Shown here in pieces: positions 26,471-44,363 of a DNA stretch of 44,363 bases. The stretch is taken from positions 1 through 44,363 of IMG/VR virus record IMGVR_UViG_3300042295_000291. One strand, written 5' to 3'. The translations under genes and the position numbers were made by a program. The first letter of the stretch is position 1; each line of letters opens with the position of its first letter. The notes below the pieces were generated by a model. It was given only the letters and a program-made list of their open reading frames with translations, made no database searches and was not told where the DNA came from. This DNA comes from a virus.

Positions 26471-26474
26471 GGGG

Positions 26475-26741: not shown

Positions 26742-26742
26742 G

Positions 26743-31278: not shown

Positions 31279-31370
31279 GCCAACCCCGCCAATCTAAACG
31301 CCAACTCCGTTGGCACTGTCCGTTGCACATACGCCCGATGCAGCGGGCACCAGTAGTAGATGATGGTCAT
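31275..31370 (-). CDS. Tiny ORF, 31 aa
   Basis: ATG at 31370 overlaps the previous stop (ATGA), has GAGGAA upstream, and its TGA overlaps the next ATG. Begins 'MTIIYYWCPLHRAYV'. Kept because it fills the only gap in a chain of coupled genes exactly; the protein itself gives no clue. Confidence 0.45.
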   Translation of the reverse strand: MTIIYYWCPLHRAYVQRTVPTELAFRLAGLA

Positions 31371-32201: not shown

Positions 32202-32281
32202 GTCCTGCTCCTGAGCCACCGCCACAGCGGCAGCAGTGCTAGTCCGCTGGCGAATCCGCGCAGAAAGGCGCGGAGTTTCAT
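32198..32281 (-). CDS. Tiny membrane protein, 27 aa
   Basis: ATG at 32281 overlaps the previous stop and its TGA overlaps the next ATG. The peptide has a basic start ('MKLRAFLRG'), a hydrophobic core ('FASGLALLPLW') and a basic end ('RWLRSRT'), the layout of a single-pass or amphipathic membrane peptide. Such peptides in phage early operons often act on host membrane proteins; that is inference. Confidence 0.55.
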   Translation of the reverse strand: MKLRAFLRGFASGLALLPLWRWLRSRT

Positions 32282-33000: not shown

Positions 33001-33287
33001 TCAAACCCCCTTTCCTTGAGCCTTTGCTCGCGCTCGTTGCGTCGCTGCTCCATCGCCAGGAACTCACAGCCCTGAGCGCATTGCGGATGCGCGGCACGCT
33101 CCCAGAGAGATTTCTGTCTGCTCCATTGCTCTCGGCGATCCTTCAGCCACTGGACGTCCTTGTCGTGTTGTTCCAGCGCGGCGCGGAATCGTTCCGCGTA
33201 GTACTTGAAGTGCCCGCATCCTCCGCAGTCGTTGTCGGCAACAGAATCGGCGACAAACTCCTGCACGGCTTCGCGTAGCGTGGTCAT
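32997..33287 (-). CDS. Small early protein with Cys cluster, 96 aa
   Basis: ATG at 33287 (GGGGGAAGAA upstream), coupled at both ends. 'NDCGGCGHFKYYAERFRAALEQHD' opens with a C..C pair followed by a helix; 'HPQCAQGCEFLAMEQRRNER' gives a second C...C pair. The four cysteines could hold a zinc ion. No family recognised. Confidence 0.6.
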   Translation of the reverse strand: MTTLREAVQEFVADSVADNDCGGCGHFKYYAERFRAALEQHDKDVQWLKDRREQWSRQKSLWERAAHPQCAQGCEFLAMEQRRNEREQRLKERGFE

Positions 33288-33508
33288 TTCTTCCCCCAAT
33301 CGCAGGTTATGCCGCCTCTGCCGCTGCTATTGCTGGACAGCACAATGCAACGGGTTCCATCGTCCATAACCACAGGCACGATATAGGAGAAGTTGTTACC
33401 GGGTGTAGTAATCACACGCCACCCTTTTGGTGTTGTCTCCGACTCGTAAAACCCTGTGGGCGCGCAGCCTGCAATGAGCAGCACCGTTGTTAAGAGGATG
33501 AGTTTCAC
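33284..33508 (-). CDS. Small lipoprotein, 74 aa
   Basis: GTG at 33508 overlaps the previous stop (GTGA). The N-terminus 'MKLILLTTVLLIAGC' is a type II signal peptide with lipobox LIAGC (C15 lipidated). The mature part ('WRVITTPGNNFSYIVPVVMDD', 'GGITCDWGKK') is a small beta domain with two cysteines. Envelope lipoproteins made early by phages often block superinfection or mimic host components; here this is inference. Confidence 0.72.
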   Translation of the reverse strand: MKLILLTTVLLIAGCAPTGFYESETTPKGWRVITTPGNNFSYIVPVVMDDGTRCIVLSSNSSGRGGITCDWGKK

Positions 33509-33756
33509 TTGATCACCCCCACAGGACCGAAAATCAACCCGATCAGAATGATCGCAATGACCGCGCCCAGCACCTTGGGCCACAGCGGCTCGGGCTGGGG
33601 CTCGATGTACTTGTGCGCCTCGATCTCGTCGGGATCGACGCAGGGCTCGGCGGGGAGCCACTCCTGCCCGCAGTAAATGCATTTGTAGCCGCCAGAAAAC
33701 CACGGCCTCCATTCATGTTCTCCCGTTGTTGACGGCTTGCAAACGTCTTCGTTCAT
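33505..33756 (-). CDS. Zinc-ribbon protein with C-terminal TM helix, 83 aa
   Basis: ATG at 33756 with AAGGAG upstream, overlapping the previous stop. 'HEWRPWFSGGYKCIYCGQEW' carries a C26..C29 pair as in half a zinc ribbon, with C6 and C39 as possible partners. Residues 61-78 ('KVLGAVIAIILIGLIFGP') are a transmembrane segment, so it is probably a tail-anchored membrane protein facing the cytoplasm. Its stop overlaps the lipoprotein start, so two envelope proteins are made side by side. Confidence 0.65.
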   Translation of the reverse strand: MNEDVCKPSTTGEHEWRPWFSGGYKCIYCGQEWLPAEPCVDPDEIEAHKYIEPQPEPLWPKVLGAVIAIILIGLIFGPVGVIK

Positions 33757-33908
33757 GTCAACTCCTTCCGTTGTACATGCGTGGCGAGCAGCCACTTGTC
33801 GCCCAGCCTGCGGATGGCCTGCACCCAGGCCCTCTGGTTGTATCTGTCCAGGCGTCGGTCGCCCGTGTTCCACAGGGCGCGGGCCTTCTTGAGCATCTTG
33901 GTCTTCAC
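33753..33908 (-). CDS. Small basic protein, 51 aa
   Basis: GTG at 33908 overlaps the previous stop (GTGA) and its TGA overlaps the next ATG. Sequence in parts: 'MKTKMLKKARALWNTGD', 'NQRAWVQAIRRLGDKWLLA'. Short Arg/Lys/Trp-rich proteins with 'W...IR.LGDKWLLA' occur in other phage early operons. Function unknown; probably helical and nucleic-acid or protein binding. Confidence 0.62.
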   Translation of the reverse strand: MKTKMLKKARALWNTGDRRLDRYNQRAWVQAIRRLGDKWLLATHVQRKELT

Positions 33909-34180
33909 GGCGTCTCCACGATCTCGTACCCTGCGTTGCGCAGCGCCCTGGGGATGTCCTTATCCCCCTGGAAACTGCCCGGGAGTTCGTGCCAATCCTT
34001 GACATCCCCTTGCGGGGTGGCTGCGAACATGTAGGTCTCCGACCCGCCGTACCTGACAAGCTGTAGGTCGATAGCGCTCACGATGACGTAGTCATGTTCT
34101 TCGTATGGAGGCTCCATGCGGAACAGCCACGCTTCGCCTCGGAAGTTGTCCGGCTTCTTGATCTTGTATGCCTTGTTCAT
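33905..34180 (-). CDS. Small early protein, 91 aa
   Basis: ATG at 34180 with AGGAG five bases upstream; a GTG at 34186 is less well spaced. It is mostly beta ('WLFRMEPPYEEHDYVIVSA', 'YGGSETYMFAATPQGDV') and ends with a helix 'KDIPRALRNAGYEIV'. It is the first gene after the terminator at 34250-34274 and opens the chain of 4-base overlaps. Function unknown. Confidence 0.62.
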   Translation of the reverse strand: MNKAYKIKKPDNFRGEAWLFRMEPPYEEHDYVIVSAIDLQLVRYGGSETYMFAATPQGDVKDWHELPGSFQGDKDIPRALRNAGYEIVETP

Positions 34181-34206
34181 GTTCACTCCTAGTTGGTTTA
34201 TGTCTA

Positions 34207-34241
34207 CCGCCTTTCAGGCGGATGGCCATTCGCAAAGCGAA
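34207..34241 (-). other. Two short hairpins in the leader of the 34180 gene
   Basis: CCGCC/GGCGG (34207-34221, 5-base loop) and TTCGC/GCGAA (34229-34241, 3-base loop) lie between the terminator and the RBS of the 91-aa gene. They could stabilise the 5' end of read-through or processed mRNA. Confidence 0.5.
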
Positions 34242-34249
34242 CAGCCAAC

Positions 34250-34274
34250 AAAAACGCCCTGCCTAGGCAGAGCG
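34250..34274 (-). terminator. Intrinsic terminator after the 80-aa gene
   Basis: On the minus strand the stem 5' CGCTCTGCC / GGCAGGGCG (34274-34255, one T-G pair, very short CCTAGG top) is followed by TTTTTG (34254-34249). It lies 25 bases after the stop at 34299, so it ends or attenuates the transcript of the single gene in front. Confidence 0.72.
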
Positions 34275-34298
34275 TTGAGTGGTGAGCGTCTTGTGACG

Positions 34299-34541
34299 TC
34301 AGGCAGTGCGCCAGACACGCAGACCATCCGACATGGTAGCCGTGCGGTACTCCGCTTCCGCAACCTTCTTCTTGGCCGCAGCCACCTTGCGGCGCCACGA
34401 GTCCACCAGCTTCGGCTCCGTCGTGTCGAACGGGATCAGGAAGCTGTCGCCAACTCCCATGTCGAGCAGAGGAAACTCGACAGCGCGACGGCCACGGGCC
34501 GGACGGGGAAGGTCAACACCAGATTCGATTTGGAACGTCAT
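34299..34541 (-). CDS. Small protein of 'VGDSF.IP ... RVWR' type, 80 aa
   Basis: Contains 'FPLLDMGVGDSFLIPF' followed by a helix 'DSWRRKVAAAKKKVAEAEYR' and a closing 'SDGLRVWR'. This plan (strand with 'VGDSF.VP', helix, 'dG.RVWR' strand) is common to very small phage proteins thought to bind nucleic acid. It is alone between a promoter (34672-34700) and an intrinsic terminator (34250-34274), unlike every other early gene here, so it is probably produced separately. A distant relative may be the 79-aa gene at 18658. Confidence 0.72.
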   Translation of the reverse strand: MTFQIESGVDLPRPARGRRAVEFPLLDMGVGDSFLIPFDTTEPKLVDSWRRKVAAAKKKVAEAEYRTATMSDGLRVWRTA

Positions 34542-34665
34542 GTCGGTCTTTCAGAACAGCGCCGGTTCATCCGGCAGAGGCGCGGCCCGAGTGGCAGGCG
34601 GCGAGACGATTAGCACCGAGCCTGAGGCTTCGATGCTGACTGGGAACGGCCACTCCGTTGATTGA
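34542..34665 (-). other. Leader of the 80-aa gene
   Basis: About 120 bases between the predicted start of transcription (near 34665) and the ATG at 34541. A 60-codon frame crosses it (34733-34551) but starts before the promoter and lacks an RBS. No clear structure beyond that. Confidence 0.4.
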
Positions 34666-34671
34666 AGCTCC

Positions 34672-34700
34672 AATGTAGCAGGGCACCAAGGTGCTGTCAA
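34672..34700 (-). promoter_or_regulatory. Sigma70 promoter with palindromic spacer
   Basis: Minus strand: TTGACA (34700-34695), 17-base spacer, TGC then TACATT (34677-34672), i.e. perfect -35, extended -10 (TGn) and 4 of 6 -10 matches. The spacer holds an inverted repeat GCACC-TT-GGTGC (34694-34683), well placed for a repressor that would compete with RNA polymerase. Confidence 0.7.
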
Positions 34701-34716
34701 CACCCATTGAAGACTG

Positions 34717-34995
34717 TCAGGGGGTTTTCTCATTTGTGGTGTGGGTGTGGAAGGTCCCAGGCGGCTCGATCCAGTAGGCCCTGATGCCTATACGCACTCC
34801 GATGTCAGGTATGTCGCTCGGGTACGCTGCGTCGAGCAAGGCTATTGCTTCGAGCATCCACTGCGGTATCTGGTCGGTGCGGTACCACCCGTCGCACACA
34901 GACTGAGGCACCCTAGGGAAGGTCTTGAGGAAGATCCCACCCGGGTGGAGATCTATCCGATACGTTGTGTCTGGATTGCGCTTCTCATCGATCAT
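34717..34995 (-). CDS. Unknown early protein, 92 aa
   Basis: ATG at 34995 overlaps the previous stop (ATGA). Contains 'YRIDLHPGGIFLKTFPRVPQSVCDGWYRTDQIPQWMLEAI'-type beta then helix order (positions about 12-50) and 'GVRIGIRAYWIEPPGTFH'. No family recognised. It is the last gene before the promoter at 34672-34700. Confidence 0.6.
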   Translation of the reverse strand: MIDEKRNPDTTYRIDLHPGGIFLKTFPRVPQSVCDGWYRTDQIPQWMLEAIALLDAAYPSDIPDIGVRIGIRAYWIEPPGTFHTHTTNEKTP

Positions 34996-35273
34996 TCCTT
35001 CTCCTTCTCCTTCGCAGCGTCACGTTGCGCCTTGGCCTCTGCCTCGGCACGGAGCTTCATGAACTCCACCGGGCCGATGGACTCCAGCTTGACTGCGCCA
35101 TCCTCCACCAACGTAGCGTAGTTGGCGCTGTGGCCCCCGCTCCACTGGTAATCTATCTTGTAGATGTCGTTGTTGGCAAGCATGTTGAACACAGCTATGC
35201 CCGCGTCTTTGGGCACGATGAACTTGTTGCCGTGGATGGTGAGAATGATCAGGTCGAACGGTGGTTTGCTCAT
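34992..35273 (-). CDS. Unknown early protein, 93 aa
   Basis: 'FDLIILTIHGNKFIVPKDAGIAVFNMLANND' then a beta strand 'YQWSGGHSANYATLVED' and a long charged helix at the end ('RAEAEAKAQRDAAKEKEKE'). The preceding gap (35274-35318) holds a CCGC/GCGG hairpin. No family recognised. Confidence 0.6.
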   Translation of the reverse strand: MSKPPFDLIILTIHGNKFIVPKDAGIAVFNMLANNDIYKIDYQWSGGHSANYATLVEDGAVKLESIGPVEFMKLRAEAEAKAQRDAAKEKEKE

Positions 35274-35318
35274 GATGATTCCTTGGTTGGGGGTTGAGAT
35301 CCGGTCCCGCGATGCGGC

Positions 35319-35582
35319 TTACTTCCTTGCGTCATACAGTGCCTCCGCTAGTACGAAGGGCGGTTCCTCGGATTCGATAGCCATCCGCCACCCTTCAGCA
35401 AAGATAACCCAGGTTTTAGTTACACCGTAGTACTTGAGATGCATCAGGCCCTTGTACGTCACGTACCCTTCCGGCATGGTGTGCCTTTGATAGAGCCCGA
35501 ATCGCTGTATGGCCGCAAGTTCATCGACCAACTTCCACTCACGCTCGGGGCCTAGGGGCTTGGGTAGTTCATGTTGGGACAT
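35319..35582 (-). CDS. Unknown protein downstream of the VWA gene, 87 aa
   Basis: ATG at 35582 lies inside the end of the VWA gene (14-base overlap). 'EREWKLVDELAAIQRFGLYQ' helix, then 'YVTYKGLMHLKYYGVTKTWV' and 'EGWRMAIESEEPPFVLAEAL'. Its coupling to the VWA/AAA+ genes suggests that it may serve the same system. No family recognised. Confidence 0.6.
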   Translation of the reverse strand: MSQHELPKPLGPEREWKLVDELAAIQRFGLYQRHTMPEGYVTYKGLMHLKYYGVTKTWVIFAEGWRMAIESEEPPFVLAEALYDARK

Positions 35583-36777
35583 ACAGCGTCTCCCCCACCG
35601 GGGCACGCAGACCCTTGGTGCTGATGCACCACAGCACAGGGCAGGGCAGCGTCGCAGGCCAGGGCGTGTACCCATCCGTGAACATGATCACAGCATCCGC
35701 GTTGATGCCGCGCTTCTCCATGTAGCGGAACATCGACCGCACGTCGGTACCGCCGCCACCCTTGGGCTTGGTCACGTTGGCGATGTCGCGCACGCGCTCA
35801 CCCTCGTACACCTCGTGCGCTGCCACCTCGGCGTCCCAGTAGATGACGTCCACCGTCTGGGGGCTGACCGACTCACACGCACCAGCCACCTCAGTCAGTG
35901 CCCGTCGCAGTTGCGCTTCACCGATGGACCCGCTGGTGTCGATGCCGATGACGATGCGGTCCACGCTCTCGGTGTATTTGCTTGGCATGTACATGTCCTG
36001 CCCAAGCCAGCGCCGTGCTGGCCTGCGCCATGTGCTCATGTCCTCACCCTTGGCGGTCGTCTTCAGCCAATCACGCAGCACGTCCTGCCAGGGCACCACA
36101 GGCTCCAGCAGTGCCTCGACGTCCCGCGCCATGCCATGGCCCAGCTTGCCAGCGATGAGTGCGCCTTGACGCAGGGCCGTGTCCACGGCCTTGGAGACCT
36201 CCTCGGCTTCGGCTTCGGTCAGGGGCTTCATACGCCCGTCAGCAGGGTCGTCACCCTCACCACCCCCGGGCTGCGCGGGCTGATGCTCGTCGAACTGCTG
36301 GCCCTTGGGGCTATTGCCCCCGCCCCCGCCGCCTTGCGGCTTGGATTGGGCTTGTTGTTTGAGCCTGCGGTACACCTCACCGGTATCCATACCCTTGAAC
36401 TGCTGGTCGCAGTAGGCATGCTTCCAGATCGTCAGGAATTGTTCGCCCGGATCTGCTTCCTTCAGCATGAGGTTGATCACCATGTCCTTGGCGATGTTGC
36501 TCAGCTTAGCGTCTTCCTGATCGAGCTTGGCCCAGGTCGTCATGTGCATCAACAGCACATGGTAGTACTCGTGCAGCACCACGAAGCGCAGCAGCTTGTC
36601 GTCGCACTCGTCAATGAACTTGCGGCCATACAGCACGTCCCTGCCGTTGGTCGCCGCAGTGGGGATGTCGTCCACCACAGACCACGTACCGATCATCAGG
36701 ATCGGGCTGATCGCAGTGAAACGCTCGTCACGCATGATGGCGCTACGCGCCTTGGTGATACGTTGTTCTGGGGTCAT
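35569..36777 (-). CDS. CobT-like protein: DUF2201 metallopeptidase-like domain plus VWA domain
   Basis: 402 residues. The N-terminal domain has 'VVLHEYYHVLLMH', an HExxH motif (H69, E70, H73), followed by 'IAKDMVINLML', as in the DUF2201 N-terminal metallopeptidase domain. A Gly/Pro/Gln-rich linker (145-180) leads to a C-terminal VWA-like domain with MIDAS motif 'IGIDTSGSIG' (D280, S282, S284), a Thr in 'GGGGTDVRSMF' and an Asp in 'VIMFTDGYTPW'. VWA proteins of this kind work with MoxR-type AAA+ ATPases, one of which is encoded just upstream. Its RBS (AAGGAG) is part of a GCTCC/GGAGC hairpin. Named cobalamin gene cobT in some annotations, but no cobalamin pathway is present here. Confidence 0.87.
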   Translation of the reverse strand: MTPEQRITKARSAIMRDERFTAISPILMIGTWSVVDDIPTAATNGRDVLYGRKFIDECDDKLLRFVVLHEYYHVLLMHMTTWAKLDQEDAKLSNIAKDMVINLMLKEADPGEQFLTIWKHAYCDQQFKGMDTGEVYRRLKQQAQSKPQGGGGGGNSPKGQQFDEHQPAQPGGGEGDDPADGRMKPLTEAEAEEVSKAVDTALRQGALIAGKLGHGMARDVEALLEPVVPWQDVLRDWLKTTAKGEDMSTWRRPARRWLGQDMYMPSKYTESVDRIVIGIDTSGSIGEAQLRRALTEVAGACESVSPQTVDVIYWDAEVAAHEVYEGERVRDIANVTKPKGGGGTDVRSMFRYMEKRGINADAVIMFTDGYTPWPATLPCPVLWCISTKGLRAPVGETLYVPT

Positions 36778-36781
36778 GATA

Positions 36782-36812
36782 GCTCCTTCGGAGCCCCGGG
36801 CGATGCCGGGGC
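36782..36812 (-). promoter_or_regulatory. Hairpins covering the RBS of the VWA gene
   Basis: The Shine-Dalgarno sequence AAGGAGC forms the 3' arm of a GCTCC-GAA-GGAGC hairpin (36794-36782), five bases before the ATG at 36777. A second 7-bp stem GCCCCGG/CCGGGGC (36812-36793) abuts and shares its outer bases. The start of the VWA gene may therefore be restrained relative to the ATPase. Confidence 0.55.
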
Positions 36813-36822
36813 GGTTGGTTTG

Positions 36823-37875
36823 TCAGCGCATCATCCAGTTGTTGGCGGTGCACCAGTTGGTGAAGTTGATGTTCCTAGCTGCGAACACAGACTTGCCCCT
36901 GATACGGAGCAACTGATTCACGAACACGCCTTGCAGTTCCAGAGGCAAGCGCTTCATGTAGGTCATGACAGGGTTGAGGGTATCCTCCATGGTGCGGTTG
37001 ATCGCCCGGTGAACCACCATCATAAGCGCTGCGGGGTTGTCAGGCAATGCTGCCATATCCGGGTTGTTGATGATGGACTGCCACGCCGGGAGCTTCCTAC
37101 CCAACTGCACATACACCTGCAGATCAGCCGCCGAGCGGTAGCCAATCAAGCCAGACAGTGCAGCTCGTTCAGCGTCGTCGTCCTCGATCTCCGCATCCAG
37201 CACACGGCCAGCAGCGGCGAGGGAGCGCGGCGTGCAGAACGCCTTGCGACCGGGGTCCTTGCGGTGCCAGATGTACGGGTTCTGGTCAGGGTTGTTCACC
37301 GTGTCGTCGTCCGCCAGCACGTCAGGCGTCTCCGTGACCCAGGCCAGGACAGCATGGTGCACACCGTTCTCGACACCCCACTGCACCCACTCCTCGGCGG
37401 TGGGCTTGCGCATGGTCACCACTGACATGCGATTGCGGACGTGCATCTGCAGGCTGTCACCCACACCCTCGGCGCTGAGGTTGGTCGTGCCGAAGACGAT
37501 GCTGCCAGCAGGCAGCGGGCGGTTGCCCACACGCCGGTCCAAGATGACCGGCAACAGCGCGTTCTGTACCGAGCGCGGGGCCTTGCCGAACTCGTCCAGG
37601 CAGATAGCCACAGGCTGCTGACCATGCACGCCGAAGATGGCGTTGGGGTAGAACGTGCTGGTGCCCGTGGCGTGGTCCACGGCGGGGAGTTGGATGTCAC
37701 CCACGTCGATCTGGGTGCAGTCGATGTAGACCGCACGGTGCCCGGGGAACCGCGCTGCCAGCATGTACAGCATGCTGGACTTGCCCGAACCCGAGGGACC
37801 CTCCACCAGCACGCTGGTGTGGGAACCGACCGCGCCGATGACGTTGGCGCACTGATTGATGCTGAGCTTGATCAT
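36823..37875 (-). CDS. MoxR/CobS-like AAA+ ATPase
   Basis: 350 residues. Walker A 'VEGPSGSGKSS' (24-34), Walker B 'ICLDEFGKAP' (91-100), sensor 1 in 'IVFGTTNLS' (127-134), arginines in 'MHVRNRM' (144-150). The 'ADIQLP'-like segment 'VGDIQLPAVDHATG' after strand 2 is typical of the MoxR/CobS branch. Such ATPases remodel a substrate together with a VWA partner, here the neighbouring gene. Phage copies are often annotated as cobaltochelatase subunit CobS, although a cobalamin role is unlikely. A long gap with three hairpins separates it from the gene upstream. Confidence 0.9.
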   Translation of the reverse strand: MIKLSINQCANVIGAVGSHTSVLVEGPSGSGKSSMLYMLAARFPGHRAVYIDCTQIDVGDIQLPAVDHATGTSTFYPNAIFGVHGQQPVAICLDEFGKAPRSVQNALLPVILDRRVGNRPLPAGSIVFGTTNLSAEGVGDSLQMHVRNRMSVVTMRKPTAEEWVQWGVENGVHHAVLAWVTETPDVLADDDTVNNPDQNPYIWHRKDPGRKAFCTPRSLAAAGRVLDAEIEDDDAERAALSGLIGYRSAADLQVYVQLGRKLPAWQSIINNPDMAALPDNPAALMMVVHRAINRTMEDTLNPVMTYMKRLPLELQGVFVNQLLRIRGKSVFAARNINFTNWCTANNWMMR

Positions 37876-37892
37876 GGTTTCTCTCTCCTAGA

Positions 37893-37904
37893 TTTACTGG
37901 TAAA
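37893..37904. promoter_or_regulatory. Operator-like motif copy 1 (TTTACTGGTAAA)
   Basis: Inverted repeat TTTAC-TG-GTAAA in the leader of the MoxR gene, just upstream of its RBS. With two flanking bases it matches a site at 41085-41098 over 14 bases in the opposite orientation; a near copy is at 39802-39813. Confidence 0.4.
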
Positions 37905-37970
37905 GGGGCCGAAGCCCCGGGGGATCACTCTTGCCCCGCCTTGCGGCGGTGCGCTGTGGATCACAGCGCA
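37905..37970 (-). other. Three hairpins between the DUF3150-like and MoxR genes
   Basis: In the transcribed strand: TGCGCTGTG/CACAGCGCA with a 3-base loop over the upstream stop (37970-37950), CCGCC-GCAA-GGCGG (37949-37936, GNRA tetraloop) and GGGGC-TTCG-GCCCC (37918-37905, UUCG tetraloop with C-G closing pair). None has a T-run. Likely mRNA stabilising or processing elements that set the ratio of the two proteins. Confidence 0.65.
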
Positions 37971-38977
37971 AACTTATCCAGAATGTCCTGCATCGCGGAC
38001 TTGGTAGCCCGCTGCAGTTCGGTGGACTCCTTGAGCGAGTCGATGTCCACCCGTGTGAGGGCAGTCTCAAGGTCCTGCCGTGCCGCTTCGAGCCGGGGGT
38101 CGTTGGTGACGTTGAGGTCACGCAACATGGCGCACAACTCCAACCCCTGCTCCAGCATGGAGTCGTACAGCTTGGGGCGGCGCTTCTTCTTGATGTCCAT
38201 GCGGACAACGCCCTCCTCAAACACATCCTTGATCTCAGACCCTACGACATTCCCATAATCATCGTACACAGGCACCTCCTCGGTGCCTACCTTGACGGCG
38301 CCCATGATGGGCTGTTCTTCCACTGCGTCGGGGTCATGCTCCAGCACGGCGGTCATGCGCTCGTGCACCCACTCGACCTGGGCCTTCACACGTTGCCATG
38401 TGTCAGCCACGGCGCCTGAGACCCGTTCCGCGAGGGCACGCTCATACTGCGCCTTCAGTTGGGCAGCGGCTTCGTTGCCGATGTCCACACGAAAATCCCC
38501 GGCCAAAGGCACCGGGCTGACGGACAGCACGAAGCGGAACTTGCCACGCACTTCGGACACAGGCGGGTACTCGCTGCGGTCGAACAGCGCACCCATCTCG
38601 AAGGCTTGCTTGGAGATCTCGGTGCCGTACACATTCACGAAGACGTTCAACAGATCGTTGAACCGCTGCTCGTACTTCGCAGCCTGCTCCATGACCCGCA
38701 GGTACTGGGCAGTGGTGATGAGCCTGCCACCGTTGTCGTCCCAGGGCAGGGTGGCGTTGTTGAACCACACGCGGGCTTCACCGCGCAGGGTCTTGATGGC
38801 TTCGAGGGACGGGCACTCGGAGAACAAGTGCTTGGATACCGTCGCCGCACGGCGGGACTTGGCGCCCTTGTTCGCCAGGACTTCCGCCTGGGTGTTCTTG
38901 TCCAACTTCCGTGCTTCCCACACAGATATGTTGAGACTTCCGATCATGGCGGAAGATGCGATGCTGATGGTGTTCAT
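37961..38977 (-). CDS. DUF3150-like partner of the MoxR-VWA pair
   Basis: 338 residues, mostly helical with several coiled-coil-prone stretches ('LRVMEQAAKYEQRFNDLLNVFVNVYG', 'AAAQLKAQYERALAERVSG'). The opening 'GSLNISVWEARKLDKNTQAEVL' and the position beside CobS- and CobT-like genes match the DUF3150-type protein that accompanies this pair in other proteobacterial phages; the family name is given from memory of that arrangement and is tentative. It may be the adaptor or substrate loader of the ATPase complex. It starts four bases after the previous stop. Confidence 0.6.
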   Translation of the reverse strand: MNTISIASSAMIGSLNISVWEARKLDKNTQAEVLANKGAKSRRAATVSKHLFSECPSLEAIKTLRGEARVWFNNATLPWDDNGGRLITTAQYLRVMEQAAKYEQRFNDLLNVFVNVYGTEISKQAFEMGALFDRSEYPPVSEVRGKFRFVLSVSPVPLAGDFRVDIGNEAAAQLKAQYERALAERVSGAVADTWQRVKAQVEWVHERMTAVLEHDPDAVEEQPIMGAVKVGTEEVPVYDDYGNVVGSEIKDVFEEGVVRMDIKKKRRPKLYDSMLEQGLELCAMLRDLNVTNDPRLEAARQDLETALTRVDIDSLKESTELQRATKSAMQDILDKFAL

Positions 38978-38980
38978 GGT

Positions 38981-39175
38981 TTACTCCTTGGTCTTCAGTT
39001 GGTCGCGCACCCACAGCGCCAGCAGCCGTGCGTCGGCAGTGGCAGCGTTGACGTAGATGAGTTCTTCGGGGCGATTTGCGAACGGTTCCGTGTAGGCGTC
39101 CACAGTACGCATGACATCTGCAAGCAGGCTGTCGATGTGACGCAGTGCGTCATGTACGTTTTTCGGTGGTTGCAT
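38981..39175 (-). CDS. Small helical protein, 64 aa
   Basis: ATG at 39175 with GAGAGAG upstream. All-helical: 'VHDALRHIDSLLADVMRTVDAY' and 'AATADARLLALWVRDQL'. Directly precedes the DUF3150-like gene. No family recognised. Confidence 0.6.
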   Translation of the reverse strand: MQPPKNVHDALRHIDSLLADVMRTVDAYTEPFANRPEELIYVNAATADARLLALWVRDQLKTKE

Positions 39176-39193
39176 TTCACTCTCTCGGGTTAT

Positions 39194-39207
39194 GCCCCCG
39201 TAGGGGC
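39194..39207 (-). other. Hairpin with UNCG tetraloop
   Basis: GCCCC-TACG-GGGGC on the transcribed strand, in the gap between the 76-aa and 64-aa genes; C-G closing pair. No T-run. Confidence 0.6.
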
Positions 39208-39213
39208 GGGGTA

Positions 39214-39444
39214 TCAGTTGAACGTGATGAAGCACACGAGGCATTCCCCGTGCGGGCGGAGTTCGATCATGTCACCGTAGTCCACGGTGACGGTACGCTT
39301 ACCCGTCCACCCTACCGCTGCCTTGGCACGCCGCACGCAGGCGTACCTGCTCAGCAGGTCAGGGGCTTCGAGCGTAGCCCTGCGCACCCAACCGTAGTTG
39401 GGCTCGTGACCGAACGTGTCGGTGACTTCAATGTTGATCTTCAT
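39214..39444 (-). CDS. Unknown early protein, 76 aa
   Basis: Starts one base after the previous stop. Beta-rich: 'MKINIEVTDTFGHEP', 'GKRTVTVDYGDMIELRPHGECLVCFITF', with a basic helix 'LLSRYACVRRAKAAVG' between. No family recognised. Confidence 0.6.
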   Translation of the reverse strand: MKINIEVTDTFGHEPNYGWVRRATLEAPDLLSRYACVRRAKAAVGWTGKRTVTVDYGDMIELRPHGECLVCFITFN

Positions 39445-39445
39445 T

Positions 39446-39775
39446 TCACTTCTCTCCTTCCAGTTGCTTAATCATTGCCTTGGCTTGGGCGACGGCTTCG
39501 TGGACCATGTCTCTGTAGTAATCACCCTCCTTTACGAACTGCTCCACGCTGTCGTAGCAGCAGCCACCCAGGTACTCGGTGGCAAGCACGATGCCCTGCT
39601 TGGCGGCCTCTACCTTTGCGATGAAGTAAGCCCACGTCCCGTCATTGATCTTACGTAGCGTCTCTGCGCGTTGTTCCTCGGTCTCGTCCCAATCCGGGGG
39701 CATATCCTCCGGGGTAGTGGATAGAACAATGTCAAAACCGTCAATGGTTTCTTTGTGTGCGGGTTCCCAATACAT
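39446..39775 (-). CDS. Unknown early protein, 109 aa
   Basis: RBS AAGGAGAG upstream of the ATG at 39775. 'KETIDGFDIVLSTTPEDMPPDWDE' then a helix 'EEQRAETLRKINDGTWAYFIAKVEAAKQG' and a Cys pair in 'YLGGCCYDSVEQF'. The leader carries a 16-bp palindrome and a GNRA hairpin, so this gene may be regulated separately. No family recognised. Confidence 0.62.
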   Translation of the reverse strand: MYWEPAHKETIDGFDIVLSTTPEDMPPDWDETEEQRAETLRKINDGTWAYFIAKVEAAKQGIVLATEYLGGCCYDSVEQFVKEGDYYRDMVHEAVAQAKAMIKQLEGEK

Positions 39776-39791
39776 AGCGTCTCTCCTTCCA

Positions 39792-39813
39792 GTTAAACGC
39801 GTTTAACAGTAAA
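39792..39813. promoter_or_regulatory. 16-bp palindrome overlapping motif copy 2
   Basis: GTTAAACGCGTTTAAC (39792-39807) is a perfect palindrome. It overlaps TTTAACAGTAAA (39802-39813), which differs from the TTTACCAGTAAA sites at 37.9 and 41.1 kb by one base. It lies 17 bases before the start of the 109-aa gene. Confidence 0.5.
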
Positions 39814-39827
39814 CCCCCTTGCGGGGG
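39814..39827 (-). other. Hairpin with GCAA tetraloop
   Basis: CCCCC-GCAA-GGGGG on the transcribed strand, a few bases after the stop at 39834. GNRA loop, no T-run. Confidence 0.65.
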
Positions 39828-39833
39828 TGTCGG

Positions 39834-40046
39834 TCAGCGGTAAATTCCGCCCTTGTTGTTGATGCCGTGCAGGTCGCGCTTGTCGGTCAGCAGGACGTAA
39901 TTGGACTTGTGCATGGGCACCACCGTCCACGAGCGGCGCTCTGCCTTCGCCTCCTCTTCCCCGCACCACAGGCAGAGCCTGTACCCGAGGGCAGCGCGAG
40001 CGGCAGGTACGTCGTCCCCGCACCGGGGGCATGTTGCGTCTGTCAT
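39834..40046 (-). CDS. DksA/TraR-like mini zinc finger protein
   Basis: 70 residues from the ATG at 40046. 'CPRCGDDVPAARAALGYRLC' followed by 'LWCGEEEA' has the C-X2-C ... C-X2-C arrangement and the 'VP.AR' turn of the DksA/TraR zinc finger (C6, C9, C25, C28). The rest, 'SWTVVPMHKSNYVLLTDKR', is a conserved tail in phage versions. TraR-like proteins bind the RNA polymerase secondary channel; this one lacks the usual helical hairpin, so whether it does so is open. Confidence 0.7.
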   Translation of the reverse strand: MTDATCPRCGDDVPAARAALGYRLCLWCGEEEAKAERRSWTVVPMHKSNYVLLTDKRDLHGINNKGGIYR

Positions 40047-40047
40047 G

Positions 40048-40251
40048 TCAGTCCTTCGGACCCGCAGCGCGGGTCGGGTTGGAGTTGTCTGGTGCAAGCG
40101 GGATGTCTCCCGTGCGCTTGCAGTACTCGATGCAGTCGTCGTGTGATGCGTGACGCATCACCGACAGGTGCCCGGTCGGGTTGTAGCTCGACCACTGCGT
40201 GGGGTGGCTGAGCTTGGGAAGCCCCGCCTTGAGTTGGTGCCAGGATGGCAT
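40048..40251 (-). CDS. Small unknown protein, 67 aa
   Basis: Starts one base after the previous stop and ends one base before the zinc-finger start. 'MPSWHQLKAGLPKLSHPTQW', 'HASHDDCIEYCKRTGDIPL'. His/Cys-rich; no family recognised. The end of the gene includes a GACCCGC/GCGGGTC stem. Confidence 0.55.
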   Translation of the reverse strand: MPSWHQLKAGLPKLSHPTQWSSYNPTGHLSVMRHASHDDCIEYCKRTGDIPLAPDNSNPTRAAGPKD

Positions 40252-40252
40252 G

Positions 40253-40534
40253 TCAGTCCTTCGCGTTGATCCGCGCTACGAAATGCGTCTGCGCTTTGCT
40301 CCTGGCGAGTGCATGGCCGACACGGAAGTCGGCACCGATAGCACGGAGGATGTCGTTCATGTGTGCAGCCGTGGTGCGGGTATAGAACCCGTGCCAATAA
40401 AAGACTACAGCACCGTCGGTTTTGACGGCGATAGGGCTGTCGTGCAGGGTGTACGTCTGCCCATCGGTGTGGGCGTTGTGGCACTTGCCCGGCACGCCCT
40501 GAGCGAATGCGTCTGCGGTGGATTGACGGGTCAT
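40253..40534 (-). CDS. Unknown early protein, 93 aa
   Basis: ATG at 40534 overlaps the previous stop (ATGA). 'HNAHTDGQTYTLHDSPIAVK' and 'GAVVFYWHGFYTRTTAAHMNDILRAIG' suggest a small alpha/beta domain; 'HGF.T..T..H.N.IL...G' is a style seen in other small phage proteins. Function unknown. Confidence 0.62.
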   Translation of the reverse strand: MTRQSTADAFAQGVPGKCHNAHTDGQTYTLHDSPIAVKTDGAVVFYWHGFYTRTTAAHMNDILRAIGADFRVGHALARSKAQTHFVARINAKD

Positions 40535-40767
40535 GCCAGCCCCACCATCGCTGCGCGGATCGACGTCACGGTGTACTTGGCACCGTCCGGGGTGTGCGTG
40601 ATACCCGCCATGTTCAGGCGGTCGAGCATCGCATGCGCTGCACGCTCCCTCGGGGTCATGCTCCGAGTGAAGGAAGACCAGTGCCGGTACTGCTTGATGC
40701 AGTCCAGGGCCATGCGGTACAGCCCTTCGTCGTTGAGAATCCACAGAGTTACCTTGCGATTAGCCAT
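40531..40767 (-). CDS. Unknown early protein, 78 aa
   Basis: ATG at 40767 with GGAGGAAGT upstream. 'VTLWILNDEGLYRMALDCIKQY', 'MTPRERAAHAMLDRLN', and 'PDGAKYTVTSIRAAMVGL'. Mostly helical. It precedes the 93-aa gene with a 4-base overlap. No family recognised. Confidence 0.6.
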   Translation of the reverse strand: MANRKVTLWILNDEGLYRMALDCIKQYRHWSSFTRSMTPRERAAHAMLDRLNMAGITHTPDGAKYTVTSIRAAMVGLA

Positions 40768-40777
40768 ACTTCCTCCA

Positions 40778-41059
40778 TCAAGCGAAATACTGACCGACGA
40801 TGACTTGATCTTCGTCAGCGAAGCGGAACAGGACGCCGGAAAAGAACGTCTCCGACACGATGCCGTCCCAGCCTTTGAACTGATCGAACCCGACGCCGCA
40901 GGCTTGGCTGTCATACACGTCGTACCAGTGACCCTTGTACTGCACGAACCGTGCGGTGTAGTCGCCGTCCCCGACGTAGTCGAACTCCGCCCGGACTTTG
41001 TCCGGGAGTTCCGCGAGGCACGCCAGCGGACGCGGGTGGTTGTTGGTACTGAGTTTCAT
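40778..41059 (-). CDS. Unknown early protein, 93 aa
   Basis: ATG at 41059 overlaps the previous stop. Beta-rich and aromatic: 'VRAEFDYVGDGDYTARFVQY', 'GHWYDVYDSQACGVGFDQF', 'GWDGIVSETFFSGVLFRF'. Probably a small globular domain. No family recognised. Confidence 0.6.
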   Translation of the reverse strand: MKLSTNNHPRPLACLAELPDKVRAEFDYVGDGDYTARFVQYKGHWYDVYDSQACGVGFDQFKGWDGIVSETFFSGVLFRFADEDQVIVGQYFA

Positions 41060-41262
41060 GGTCTTACGCCTTTCTCTTGGTTATGTTTACCAGTAAATCC
41101 CGACGGGTTTACCTTCGGGAGGAAGATGTACCACTTGTCGTTGTGGTACGGACCCAGGCACCGGAGACCTAGCTCGCGCAGGTCCTTGATGATGGCCGGG
41201 TCCACGGGGCCGGTCTGCTGAATGACCGGGATCCCGAAACGTCTCAGTTTGGTCTGGTTCAT
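41056..41262 (-). CDS. First gene of the main early operon, 68 aa
   Basis: ATG at 41262, weak RBS (AAAGGCG). 'VDPAIIKDLRELGLRCLGPYHNDKWYIFLP' gives a helix, then strands. It directly follows the 500-base structured leader, so any control exerted by that leader acts first on this gene. Function unknown. Confidence 0.55.
   Translation of the reverse strand: MNQTKLRRFGIPVIQQTGPVDPAIIKDLRELGLRCLGPYHNDKWYIFLPKVNPSGFTGKHNQEKGVRP
41087..41098. promoter_or_regulatory. Operator-like motif copy 3 (TTTACCAGTAAA)
   Basis: Same sequence as the site at 37893-37904 read on the other strand, plus two shared flanking bases (TC). It lies inside the 3' part of the 68-aa gene and about 30 bases upstream of the next start. 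Confidence 0.35.
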
Positions 41263-41699
41263 GGTCTGTCGCCTTTCATGGGGTCAAGCCCCGGTGTTCG
41301 CAGCACATGCTGCCTAGAGCACTCGTTGTACCGTGCGGACGGTTTGCGCGAAGCGCTCTAGGCAGGGGGCAGAACCCCCTGCGATGTTGCGACTACGGTC
41401 TCGCCCCACGCTCTCGCGTTGTGCGGATTAGGCACATGGGATCCCCGCTCATGCTGTCGCTATATGTTTGTAGGTTGTGGTTCAGGTATCCACAACAACC
41501 TGCACAGGGTCTTTCCCCTGCGGCCTACGCGTCAACGGTCTCTTACCGTCGATCACGTCGAGGAACTGAACCTCACCCCATTTGTCCTGCCACAGGCAGC
41601 GGTGTCGGGCTAGATCAGTATCTTGTCAGCAGGCTTGTGGGTAAGCCTGCGAAACCCCGGTATAGCGGGGCGCTTGCTAAGCACCCCTCCCGGTACTGG

Positions 41700-41712
41700 A
41701 TTGTTAAAGAGC
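41700..41712 (-). promoter_or_regulatory. boxA-like antitermination element
   Basis: The transcribed strand reads GCTCTTTAACAAT, identical over 13 bases to the boxA region of E. coli rRNA leaders (TGCTCTTTAACAAT). boxA RNA binds NusB-NusE and helps RNA polymerase pass terminators in untranslated RNA. It starts about 63 bases into the transcript, just after the operator palindrome and just before the first long stem. Confidence 0.72.
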
Positions 41713-41713
41713 T

Positions 41714-41732
41714 TGTTATACACTGTATAACA
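41714..41732. promoter_or_regulatory. Palindromic operator copy 1
   Basis: TGTTATACACTGTATAACA, a perfect 19-base inverted repeat with one central base. The 17-base core recurs exactly at 43208-43224 and with two changes at 44153-44169. It lies 50-70 bases downstream of the strong promoter. Confidence 0.75.
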
Positions 41733-41733
41733 T

Positions 41734-41749
41734 ACCGAGCTAGCTCGGT
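41734..41749. promoter_or_regulatory. 16-bp perfect palindrome
   Basis: ACCGAGCTAGCTCGGT, directly beside the operator copy 1 and 25-40 bases downstream of the predicted start of transcription. It can act as a DNA-binding site or fold as a 6-bp RNA hairpin with a CTAG loop. Confidence 0.6.
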
Positions 41750-41780
41750 GTCGATAGGCTGATCTCCCACCGACAGATAC

Positions 41781-41809
41781 ATTATAGCATAGACTGACCC
41801 TTATGTCAA
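41781..41809 (-). promoter_or_regulatory. Consensus sigma70 promoter of the main early operon
   Basis: Minus strand: TTGACA (41809-41804), 17 bases, TATAAT (41786-41781), preceded by TGC (extended -10). All 12 core bases match the consensus. It overlaps the last codons and the stop of the 315-aa gene. Transcription should start near 41774 and run leftward through the leader into the whole early operon. Confidence 0.9.
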
Positions 41810-42748
41810 GTCAATAGCTTCCGTTTGTGTGTCTGTTGTACCGGGCTGTGCTGGTGCAGGTTTGATGGCTTTCTTGACTCCCCATGCGTCCAATGCGGCG
41901 ACCTCTTCGGCAGTCTCGGGCTTGGAACGGGTCTCAAGCAGCTTATAAGCCTTCCGGCTCACCAGCACTACGTTGTCCGATGCCATCGGCCTGGACATGT
42001 CCCTGCGAACAATAGCGATGAGCCTGTTGTCCTTGGGGTAGCTGTGCCTGTCATAGATCAGCGGCAGCCCCAGCAGTGGGCACCGTTCGGGGAACAACCG
42101 CTCCCCATGATGCTTGATGAGCAGGTCCTCGGTGTCGAACTTGCCGTATCTTGCGACGGTGCCAGACCCCCGGACAACGTCCCTGCTATAGGCAGCACTC
42201 TTTGCACGTTGTACCTCACCCACCAAAGCACGCCACCGTGGGTCGTGCTTGTATTCGGCAGGCTTCGCGCGGCCTACGGCCTCGGTGCCGCCCATGGCGC
42301 GGCGCACCACAAGAGGGGACACCTCGAACAGTTCAGCCACAGCGGGCACGACTTGGAACTCCTCCAGGCCGCTGCGCTCCATGATCTGGCGCACGGTCTC
42401 ACGCAGGCCCAGGTCCCTGATCTCGGTCCACACGTTGTTGGGGGTGACCTTGTGTATGGTGTCGATGGCGCTCTGCACGGTGTGCACCGTCAAGGGGTCC
42501 AGGGCTGTGATGTCGGTGGCGCCTGCGGCGCCCTGGAGCAAGGGTGTACAGTATTCACACAAAGCATAGGTGGTGCCCGCAATGAAGTAGACTGTCCGGG
42601 AGCCGGGAGGGGTGGCGCGGGGCACGGGCTTGTTGTGCAGGGTCTTGGGCACTTGAGGGTGGGGGCGGTAGACCCAGCGGGGAGAGCCTGTGGGCTTCGC
42701 CCGCAGAGCCACGCGTTGGAGCAGGGTGTCGATGTCGGCGTGCTTCAT
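41801..42748 (-). CDS. HNH-related protein of unknown role, 315 aa
   Basis: Residues about 215-275 ('RCPLLGLPLIYDRHSYPKDN', 'SDNVVLVSRKAYKLL') follow the plan of short HNH-type domains ('CP.LGIPL ... N..viS..AN.lK'), but the catalytic His pair is not evident, so it may be inactive or a DNA-binding derivative. The middle part ('GLEEFQVVPAVAELFEVSPLVVRRAMGG') looks like a helix-turn-helix. A C-X2-C pair occurs at 'LCEYC'. A DNA-binding regulator just upstream of the early promoter would fit. The ATG at 42748 has no Shine-Dalgarno sequence; TACAAT lies about 40 bases upstream as a possible -10. Confidence 0.5.
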   Translation of the reverse strand: MKHADIDTLLQRVALRAKPTGSPRWVYRPHPQVPKTLHNKPVPRATPPGSRTVYFIAGTTYALCEYCTPLLQGAAGATDITALDPLTVHTVQSAIDTIHKVTPNNVWTEIRDLGLRETVRQIMERSGLEEFQVVPAVAELFEVSPLVVRRAMGGTEAVGRAKPAEYKHDPRWRALVGEVQRAKSAAYSRDVVRGSGTVARYGKFDTEDLLIKHHGERLFPERCPLLGLPLIYDRHSYPKDNRLIAIVRRDMSRPMASDNVVLVSRKAYKLLETRSKPETAEEVAALDAWGVKKAIKPAPAQPGTTDTQTEAIDLT

Positions 42749-42813
42749 TTGTAGAGTGTGAAGGCTGAAGGGACGGCTATTGTACTACAAAAACGGACTC
42801 GGATGCGGGGGAT

Positions 42814-42835
42814 GTTCGGGAAGTTCCTATTGTTC
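42814..42835. repeat. Three GTTC boxes at 9-base spacing
   Basis: GTTC begins at 42814, 42823 and 42832 exactly, so the boxes are nearly on one face of the helix. The last two with their spacer (GTTCCTATTGTTC, 42823-42835) recur as a perfect 13-base inverted copy at 43124-43136. Confidence 0.65.
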
Positions 42836-42884
42836 GATTTATATGCGAATTTTAAGTGGTTGTGGGGGCTCAGGAAAATGGCAA

Positions 42885-42909
42885 ATGTTCTGTAAAACTC
42901 TATGTTCTG
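42885..42909. repeat. Direct repeat ATGTTCTG
   Basis: ATGTTCTG at 42885-42892 and 42902-42909, in the same AT-rich stretch and containing the same TTC core as the neighbouring GTTC boxes. Confidence 0.5.
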
Positions 42910-43123
42910 GAAGTATGAATAGCTCCACGGCAAGTAAAGAGACTTACATCTCACTAAATATCACTTCTCCCCCTATATATTTTCACTTATATGAAGTTGT
43001 ATTAGGGAAATCCTTACCTACCTACCTATATTCTTTTTAAAAAATAATAGAACAACGGAACAAAAGCGAACTTCTCTTTTGAAATCAAGCACTTGCGTGC
43101 TCGCGTACCCACCGAACATGGCA

Positions 43124-43136
43124 GAACAATAGGAAC
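43124..43136. repeat. Inverted copy of the GTTC box pair
   Basis: GAACAATAGGAAC, the exact reverse complement of 42823-42835, about 290 bases away. A third GAAC lies ten bases upstream (43114). Confidence 0.7.
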
Positions 43137-43205
43137 ATGCCACCCGCGTGCTCGTAAGGCCGCTCGCGGACTCGTTTGGGGACCGGATCTCAGCGTGCGG
43201 GGGCG

Positions 43206-43226
43206 ATGTTATACACTGTATAACAT
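43206..43226. promoter_or_regulatory. Palindromic operator copy 2
   Basis: Same 17-base core GTTATACACTGTATAAC (43208-43224) as copy 1; here the perfect inverted repeat extends to 21 bases. It lies in the non-coding region upstream of the 315-aa gene. Confidence 0.75.
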
Positions 43227-43359
43227 TTGTAGAAATGCTTTTCGGGGGTTCGGTGCTGCCCAGGCGTGCGTTGTGCGTTGCGCTCGCGTACAGGCGCGGC
43301 CTCCTCGCGTACTCGCGTGCCGCTCGCGTGCTCGTTGACATCCGGTCCCGACCGGGCAC

Positions 43360-43391
43360 AAAAAAGCCCGCAGGGCGCGAACCCTGCGGGC
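43360..43391 (-). terminator. Intrinsic terminator of the 212-aa gene
   Basis: Minus strand: perfect 10-bp stem GCCCGCAGGG/CCCTGCGGGC (43391-43366) with a 6-base loop, followed by six T (43365-43360). It follows the stop at 43424 by about 33 bases. A 16-base GC palindrome (43401-43416) lies in between. Confidence 0.92.
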
Positions 43392-43423
43392 TGTGTGGCA
43401 AGCCCCCCGGGGGGCTGCTATCG

Positions 43424-44062
43424 TCAGGACTTCCGGACCCTGCGCATGCAGGCGATCATTTCCAGTCCTGCATCTTTGAACCTATCGACGTCCGCGACGT
43501 CAACCATCTTTGTAGCTGCCGCAATCCATCCCTGGATCGTGACAATCGGGTCTGCCGATTCCGCGGGCTTATCGTCGGTCTTTGCCTTTTTCTCGCGAAC
43601 CTTCTCGACTCCGTTAGCGACATCGATGTATTGACGAATCCGACTCACCATCGGCCCGTCGACCAGCATCATGTAAGTCCGGCGCTGGGTCTTGAGCACG
43701 TCGTCATCGATATCGCGAAGCTGGTCGCGGGTGAGGCCCAAAAGGTCCGCCACTGTCCAACGGTTGGACCCCTTAGGGGTCTGTTCGGAAACCGAACCCG
43801 GGACAACACTATGAAAGGTCATCCCTTTCTTCGACGCGCTAACACCCTGGACGATAAACCCGCGAACCTGATCGTGGACCGACTGATTCCAGAGGTCATT
43901 CGGGTTCTTTTCCGTCGATTTCACCAGCATGCCCGACACAATGCCAGCTTTGGCCAGGGCCTTACCCGCGCGGCTCCACTTGTCACGGGCGCCATGCTCC
44001 GCAGCGGCAGCATCAGATACTGCAGCGGCAACGGGGGAGAGGTCAAACTTAACTTGCGACAT
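43424..44062 (-). CDS. Unknown protein, 212 aa, monocistronic
   Basis: ATG at 44062 with GGAG nine bases upstream. N-terminal part 'DAAAAEHGARDKWSRAGKALAKAGI' and C-terminal part 'ADPIVTIQGWIAAATKMVD' are helical. The centre 'SNRWTVADLLGLTRDQLRDIDDDVLKTQRRTYM' has the look of a helix-turn-helix or a helical binding domain. It stands alone between an operator-bearing leader and a strong terminator, as an early regulator or host-takeover gene would. I do not recognise the family. Confidence 0.65.
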   Translation of the reverse strand: MSQVKFDLSPVAAAVSDAAAAEHGARDKWSRAGKALAKAGIVSGMLVKSTEKNPNDLWNQSVHDQVRGFIVQGVSASKKGMTFHSVVPGSVSEQTPKGSNRWTVADLLGLTRDQLRDIDDDVLKTQRRTYMMLVDGPMVSRIRQYIDVANGVEKVREKKAKTDDKPAESADPIVTIQGWIAAATKMVDVADVDRFKDAGLEMIACMRRVRKS

Positions 44063-44107
44063 GGTATATGCTCCATTGGTTTGTCGCCCCTAGTGCGTCT
44101 AGGTCCG

Positions 44108-44126
44108 GTAGGATTCTGTATCCTAC
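44108..44126. promoter_or_regulatory. Inverted repeat upstream of the 212-aa gene
   Basis: GTAGGAT-TCTGT-ATCCTAC, 7-bp arms with a 5-base centre, between the 212-aa gene and operator copy 3. Just beyond, the minus strand reads TAGAAT (44134-44129), a possible -10 without a good -35. Confidence 0.5.
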
Positions 44127-44152
44127 ATTCTAGGGAAACCGGTGTTTTTGAT

Positions 44153-44169
44153 GTTAAACACCGTATAAC
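44153..44169. promoter_or_regulatory. Operator copy 3, imperfect
   Basis: GTTAAACACCGTATAAC, 15 of 17 bases equal to operator copies 1 and 2, about 90 bases upstream of the 212-aa start. Confidence 0.62.
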
Positions 44170-44293
44170 AGACCCCACCCATCCCCGACCCCCCGCTGGC
44201 AGTTTGGAGTCCCGCGCGCTCGCTGCGCTGTATTCCGCACAAACGAAGACCAAAAGTTATGAAACCCCTCATTAACACTATACAAACTATAGG

Positions 44294-44363
44294 GGGCCAC
44301 TAGGGACTACAAAAACTAAGGGCCACTAGGGACTACAAAAACTAAGGGCCACTAGGGACTACA
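44294..44363. repeat. 26-bp tandem repeat running off the window
   Basis: Two identical 26-base units (44294-44319, 44320-44345) and the first 18 bases of a third (44346-44363) end the window. Each unit begins gggccactagggactac and ends in an A-rich stretch plus ctaa. No differences between copies. The array may be longer in the real genome. Confidence 0.92.

Follow-up and report, generated by a model that had tools for sequence, protein, structure and literature searches.

An rRNA-type boxA leader ahead of the early operon of an uncultured phage: a candidate signal for Nus-factor antitermination

Gene layout and early leader

The window analysed here is the entire IMG/VR record IMGVR_UViG_3300042295_000291, 44363 bases from an uncultured bacterial virus. 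Genes matching structural proteins are read rightward, genes matching replication proteins leftward. A structural protein of Puniceispirillum phage HMO-2011 is 70% identical to its counterpart in the window, and the best-ranked isolate DNA polymerase, from Rhizobium phages, is 37% identical. Every early protein with a family match lies on the minus strand, which makes the long leftward early operon proposed in the original prediction plausible; plus-strand ORFs of up to 638 aa (35509-37425) are also present there. For the two stretches tried (41250-42800 and 1-24000) no DNA-level relatives were found among isolates, nor were isolate relatives found for the 212-aa and 315-aa genes. The window has no tRNA genes and no Rfam matches, and its boxA leader precedes protein genes, not rRNA genes.

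The early promoter (41781-41809, minus strand) is a TTGACA-17-TATAAT sequence with an extended -10, TG lying one base ahead of the -10 (12/12 matches), just as had been read from the letters; the -35 and the stop codon that ends the upstream 315-aa gene overlap, and the promoter is kept in relatives. It is the best of six promoter-like matches in 24364-44363, where 5.7 are expected at the 9-of-12 threshold. From the position of the -10, transcription is predicted to start near 41774. The RNA would open with a 25-nt predicted hairpin beginning at +1 (41750-41774, minus), absent from the original prediction, which is kept across relatives with differing stem sequence. Next come a 16-bp palindrome, ACCGAGCTAGCTCGGT (41734-41749, minus), which can fold as an RNA hairpin and is present in some relatives only (L018 carries CACCGGGCTAACCCGGTG in its place), a 19-bp palindrome, TGTTATACAGTGTATAACA (41714-41732), and boxA, GCTCTTTAACAAT (41700-41712, minus). 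Both palindromes and boxA thus fall in the first 75 transcribed bases, where they had been predicted. The claimed identity of boxA to that of rRNA leaders also holds, the same 13 bases occurring in the E. coli rrnB leader (L119). It fits exactly the consensus GYTCTTTAANA as quoted in PMC5725501; the host's own rRNA boxA may or may not match it.

At up to two mismatches the boxA 13-mer has one match in the window, against a shuffle mean of 0.36. Among 200 near-complete dinucleotide shuffles there was no exact 13-mer, no perfect promoter, and no perfect promoter with a boxA-like sequence within 90 nt. The expected long untranslated leader measures ~512 nt (41263-41774, minus; from the ORF list and fold) between the predicted start and the first early-operon ORF, which encodes 68 aa without a family match (41056-41262, minus). 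For boxC we take the letters to be GTGTGGG, a motif present in L119. No boxC-like sequence (≤1 mismatch) occurs in the 50 nt behind the window boxA; a few relatives have 1-mismatch matches, at distances other than 18-19 nt behind boxA. The window has no lambda-type boxB (perfect stem of at least 5, loop of 4-6, start ≤16 nt behind boxA), and one short boxB-like hairpin lies behind the boxA of L022.

Two RNA elements behind boxA

R1 (41501-41563, minus), ~211-273 nt after the predicted start, is a 63-nt RNA of two hairpins whose stems covary, and part of the window's phage family retains it. Across 8 distinct sequences its 22 pairs are paired in 100% of cells and 8 pairs are changed on both sides, and 0/500 shuffles scored as high, R1 having been selected as the best-conserved stretch of the leader. 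Its covariance model gave 12 strong matches in 60 sources (training sequences included) and three weak partial ones (L022, L025, L102). An R1 signature scan found 14 contigs besides the window, 12 of them known already and two new (L125, L131), all with a promoter and a boxA-like sequence upstream; R1 was seen only in the window's phage family, that is, the window and these 14 contigs.

The second element, R2, is a hairpin whose internal loop reads GUC/RUKG and which lies 7-8 nt past the 11-nt boxA. The window has an R2 variant (41657-41693, minus), 8 nt after the 11-nt boxA core, with the spacing of the relatives' R2 and without the GUC strand. Over 16 R2 candidates, 146/160 cells are paired (shuffled mean 124.9, maximum 133), the search pattern itself fixing the loop and two of the ten pairs. 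Thirteen of the 16 have at least 8/10 pairs; the others (L142, L145, L146) are probably chance matches. The unfiltered count was 20 distinct motifs in 1.5 Mb, of which 11 have a boxA (≤3 mismatches) within 30 nt upstream, several of these 11 loci having been fetched by the boxA-type pattern itself. Carriers include L010, L020, L040, L079, L125, L137, L138, L140, L141 and L148, and the element links the relatives of the window to a second family (L040, L069, L079, L083, L138, L141, L144, L147, L148), in which L079 shares the structural protein (72%). The early genes of the two boxA+R2 families have a single protein match <1e-5, 8.8 kb behind boxA, several second-family loci holding little downstream DNA. 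Rfam gave nothing up to E 1 for the window leader, and R1 and R2 were unmatched in the sequences tried.

Conservation of promoter and boxA

Relatives were collected through the early ATPase gene, which lies 4-5 kb away, so that boxA was not a criterion (24 loci). Promoter plus boxA (TTGACA, and ≤2 mismatches in 11, within ~90 nt) occur in 18/24. A search for boxA at the same position in related phages had been proposed as a check: all 18 loci that are at least 66% identical and have enough upstream sequence keep promoter and boxA, several of these leaders being duplicates, with ~12 distinct. Of the six loci without the leader, L014, L019 and L028 hold ≤2.6 kb upstream of the ATPase gene and L027 holds 3.5 kb; L029 and L030 (33% identical, 8 kb upstream) lack it, a weak L029 match with a poor promoter having been left out of the counts. 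The leader is also found in the distant L039, L101 and L117 (ATPase 36-43%), which were fetched by the boxA pattern itself.

The position of boxA is constant in diverged relatives while the flanking sequence changes. Information content is 1.78 bits in boxA, a figure inflated by selection of the rows on a boxA match, vs 0.23 in the flanks (18 of 19 leaders, L023 giving no match within the distance limit). GCTCTT is invariant in all 18 leaders and the 3' half varies: we found GCTCTTTAAAA in L023, GCTCTTGAACA in L008 (same contig as L003), GCTCTTTCAAA in L024 and L131, GCTCTTTAGCG in L018, GCTCTTTTACA in L022 and GCTCTTAAACA in L025, the last four variants lying outside the consensus as PMC5725501 gives it. 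L003 matches the window at 99.9% identity across 3663 bases, and its only three differences (41706, 41700 and 41697; also in L008/L122) are all in or beside boxA. By our own numbering, the one at 41706 adjoins the base of U-141G, a change described in PMC10250234 as blocking complex formation in E. coli. These differences may be sequencing errors behind a strong hairpin, or a genuine variant.

The internal terminator

The terminator that had been noted at 34.25 kb is present within the early operon as a hairpin (34276-34253, minus) followed by a T run. It was found in 9/9 early regions in one scan and at 14/25 loci in another. Of the 11 loci without a match, L008 and L016 end before its place and L009 inside it; L017, L025, L026, L030 and L031 end soon past the ATPase start; L027 and L028 are ambiguous; and L029 (33%), with 8 kb behind the ATPase start, lacks it. 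In some relatives the terminator is followed by another terminator-like hairpin.

Upstream of the terminator lies a promoter-like site at a conserved position, TTGACA-17-TACATT in the window (34672-34700, minus); a TTGACA promoter with a weak -10 occurs 333-439 bp before the terminator in 9/9 loci. Between them is an 80-aa DUF7303-like gene (34299-34541, minus), just below the Pfam cut-off in the window and above it in L011. The DUF7303-like ORF is found in 6/9 loci, with other frames in L020, L022 and L023. Promoter, gene and terminator (34700-34253, minus) form a self-contained unit embedded in the early operon, with no boxA-like sequence (≤3 mismatches) in the unit behind its promoter. No strong promoter (≥10/12) lies within 1.5 kb behind the terminator in any of the nine loci; weaker promoter-like sites (9/12) occur further down, e.g. 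at 29454. With no strong promoter close behind it, this terminator has to be passed by polymerase from the early promoter before the genes for DNA polymerase and helicase are transcribed, unless these distal genes are served by weak or unusual promoters.

The signal in other viral contigs

A pattern of TTGACA, 15-19, TATANT, 28-58 nt and GCTCTTTAACA matched 85 IMG/VR contigs, vs none with boxA reversed and one with boxA scrambled. The 85 fall into 27 leader clusters. The two largest (31 and 7 members; one contig of each examined) look lambdoid in their early operons, because a CI-like repressor and recombination genes are present. Eight contigs have a tRNA gene whose start lies 13-26 nt past boxA; the same-strand tRNA genes behind boxA in the DNA examined number two in L035, three in L049, three in L063, six in L068, eight in L081, one in L092, 20 in L094 and one in L098, and L035, L063, L068, L092 and L098 have more tRNA genes upstream of the promoter. 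Seven of these eight records, one of them 364 kb, were searched whole and hold exactly one GCTCTTTAACA each. L068 is a real phage, since it carries a terminase and a UvsX-like gene. Near the phage tRNA genes of L063 lies a protein matching the phrog_850 RNA-binding protein (4184-5596, minus).

The exact GCTCTTTAACA is absent from HMO-2011, Roseobacter phage CRP-1, MW202701, PA5oct and HK022. With what we take to be the alphaproteobacterial boxA motif, the HMO-2011 genome gave several mismatched matches, none tied to an early leader.

Hairpins were sought in 35 leaders (the 27 cluster representatives and eight relatives) with an energy of -3 or below and the last paired base ≤5 nt from boxA. 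Such a hairpin ends ≤5 nt before boxA in 33/35 (shuffle mean 13.9, maximum 20), these folds covering only the promoter-boxA piece and long pieces often passing by chance (shuffle fraction up to 0.77).

Operator-like palindromes and the 315-aa gene

The original prediction had listed the palindromes alongside boxA; they do not belong to the boxA signal as such. The 16-bp hairpin is, as noted, found in some relatives only. The 19-bp palindrome has three copies in the window (shuffle mean 0.02 matches): the one next to boxA, an exact one at 43207-43225, and one with two mismatches at 44152-44170, 90 bp upstream of the 212-aa gene. It looks operator-like rather than part of boxA because its sequence is replaced by other palindromes in relatives. 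At ≤3 mismatches, a GTTTACCAGTAAAC-type palindrome is found in L010, L011, L012 and L018; others are AGTTAAACRCGTTTAACT in L020 (5 places), ATTAAACGCGTTTAAT in L023 (8), GTTAACCGCAGTTAAC in L024 (6), TTTCATACWGTATGAAA in L101 (10 places in 6.4 kb) and CTTCATACNGTATGAAG in L117 (7), counts that carry no shuffle control, and the palindrome of L013 occurs once. To judge from their sequences, these dispersed palindromes may act as DNA operators of shifting specificity.

A candidate binder of the palindrome is the putative 315-aa product of the gene that runs up to the promoter (41801-42748, minus). Counterparts at the same place in relatives range from 314 to 392 aa, with a 423-aa frame in L125 and none among the frames of L101 and L117. 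A possible helix-turn-helix at residues 130-151 is a reading of the sequence only, because the predicted fold (mean pLDDT 77, pTM 0.46) had no PDB match at E ≤0.001.

Comparison with known systems

The closest likeness is to the E. coli rrnB P2 leader, which also has a consensus-like promoter, a hairpin, the identical 13-nt boxA and then untranslated RNA; the gap between hairpin and boxA is 3 nt in rrnB (by eye) vs 1 nt in the window. The order boxB-boxA of rRNA leaders is that of the window and the reverse of lambda nut, as PMC6614801 presents it. Unlike an rRNA leader, the window leader lacks a boxC-like motif, precedes protein genes, has the extra R2 and R1, and, between its promoter and its boxA, bears an operator-like palindrome.

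The nutL sites of lambda and lambdoid phages likewise bring a boxA close to the promoter of an early operon that contains terminators, but in the window the hairpins precede boxA, there is no short boxB behind it, and no N-like gene was recognised in a limited search, in keeping with what had been stated from the sequence. HK022 put shares with the window an early phage leader RNA with two stem-loops (R1 in the window) and the lack of a recognised N, but the R1 covariance model gave no credible match in the HK022 genome and HK022 has no exact boxA. The suhB leader (PMC5725501) is likewise a case of rRNA-type boxA outside rRNA; there, according to that source, boxA represses its own gene, whereas the window boxA heads a long early operon. 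Nus-dependent non-lambdoid coliphages are already known: the mEpimmI phages (PMC11893012) use boxA and, unlike the window, are described with Gp17, which is N-like, and with nut sites that contain boxB.

A model for the leader and its rivals

We think it probable, with moderate confidence, that the early-operon leader is an rRNA-type Nus-factor antitermination signal that works without a recognised N protein. Host RNA polymerase would start near 41774, and the first RNA would fold into hairpins and then present boxA single-stranded. Host NusB and NusE (S10), with NusA and NusG, would bind the emerging boxA and remain on the polymerase, probably joined by SuhB. The modified polymerase would be shielded from Rho across the ~512-nt untranslated leader and would pass downstream terminators better, so that the replication genes behind the 34.25-kb terminator are reached; the hairpins after boxA would probably strengthen the complex or the read-through. 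According to PMC10250234, boxA is both needed and enough for the rRNA antitermination factors to be recruited. In a reporter whose noncoding 5' leader is 567 bp long, boxA gives partial rescue from Rho (PMC4807359), and the SuhB-containing complex is reported also to lower intrinsic termination in vitro (PMC6614801). Protection of the leader from Rho is the most secure of the roles that we infer, and passage of the 34.25-kb terminator is likely but less sure.

The antitermination reading of the original prediction stands in part. The kept boxA, the rRNA order, the long untranslated leader and the conserved terminator with no strong promoter close behind speak for it; the claim that polymerase can ignore terminators by virtue of boxA goes beyond what the rRNA boxA literature, as represented by PMC4807359 and PMC6614801, supports. 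Several observations weigh against our reading: the drift of the boxA 3' half, the L003 differences, the missing boxC, the absence of the leader from L029 and L030, and four named phages without an exact GCTCTTTAACA. In addition, PMC4807359 argues that Nus factors may not be needed for rRNA itself to withstand Rho.

That same source argues for a role of boxA in RNA maturation over antitermination, and a related reading of our leader is that boxA acts on it alone, shielding a long structured noncoding RNA or helping it to fold, as in pre-rRNA, with the distal genes served by promoters of their own that went unrecognised. The leader is indeed highly structured and holds the covarying R1, the same signal precedes structured RNA at the phage tRNA genes, and weak promoter-like sites (9/12) such as that at 29454 exist further down. 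What makes this reading unlikely, though well worth keeping in view, is the conserved terminator, which has its own upstream promoter and, in 9/9 loci, is not followed by a strong promoter over the next 1.5 kb. We also consider it rather unlikely that boxA and the R2 hairpin 7-8 nt behind it form a lambda-like nut site for an N-like phage protein that escaped recognition, the host Nus factors being insufficient. N proteins diverge strongly, and R2, whose stems covary over 13 distinct sequences while its GUC/RUKG loop stays constant, looks protein-binding. One contig from each of two boxA-scan clusters has a CI-like repressor and recombination genes, and behind the internal terminator there is a small basic ORF of 51 aa (33908-33753, minus), with a net charge of +10 and as many as 6 Arg within 18 residues. 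However, the window has the hairpin-boxA order of rRNA, and no short perfect hairpin of boxB type starts in the 16 nt that follow its boxA. Among the ORFs with a simple ribosome-site pattern, and the first two ORFs as read by eye, no small Arg-rich protein turned up between leader and terminator, and the two boxA+R2 families share only the one early protein match <1e-5, 8.8 kb behind boxA.

R1 resembles putR in size, in its two stem-loops and in its distance, as far as PMC9378689 describes that element, which would suit a leader RNA of the HK022 type, binding polymerase directly with boxA secondary. This is improbable: run with filters off against the HK022 genome, in which the put element itself was not located, the R1 model gave a best E of 1.2; HK022 has no exact boxA; and the exact R1 signature occurs in just 14 contigs besides the window. 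That boxA is a chance match or a functionless remnant, as its drift in some relatives and the L003 variant might suggest, is very hard to believe given 85 contigs vs 0 and 1 in the controls and its retention in 18/18 near relatives with coverage.

More broadly, non-lambdoid environmental phages might mimic the rRNA leader and add a hairpin, making a boxA-R2 site that confers terminator resistance with host factors alone. On this tentative proposal, about which we remain doubtful, the promoter-hairpin-boxA signal would be in use in several phage lineages that are unrelated, at early operons as well as ahead of tRNA genes. Phage antitermination is known mainly via N, Q and put (PMC9378689); new would be an rRNA-type boxA leader in non-lambdoid phages without a recognised N, and before tRNA genes. 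In the open-licence papers searched we found no description of either. If true, boxA-R2 would be a third kind of phage antitermination, and the leaders of rRNA order in non-lambdoid phages and before tRNA genes would amount to a direct borrowing of the cell's rRNA transcription machinery by phages. These leaders would offer natural minimal systems for studying how boxA acts where neither N nor rRNA is involved, a point that rRNA studies, as PMC4807359 presents them, leave open, and R1 and R2 would be two new structured RNAs.

Host and record ends

The host was sought through relatives in bacterial genomes, where none of 65 pattern stretches was confirmed, and through a stricter promoter-boxA pattern in bacterial genome contigs, which matched only four contigs, all Thorsellia; both routes were set aside. 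In the second boxA+R2 family, the Rfam Betaproteobacteria-1 RNA occurs in L040 (2604-2735) and L141 (8348-8496), an indirect hint at the host and the sole one obtained. At the right end of the record, a 26-base direct repeat is present in nearly three copies (44294-44363), which may mark an assembly end or a repeat array.
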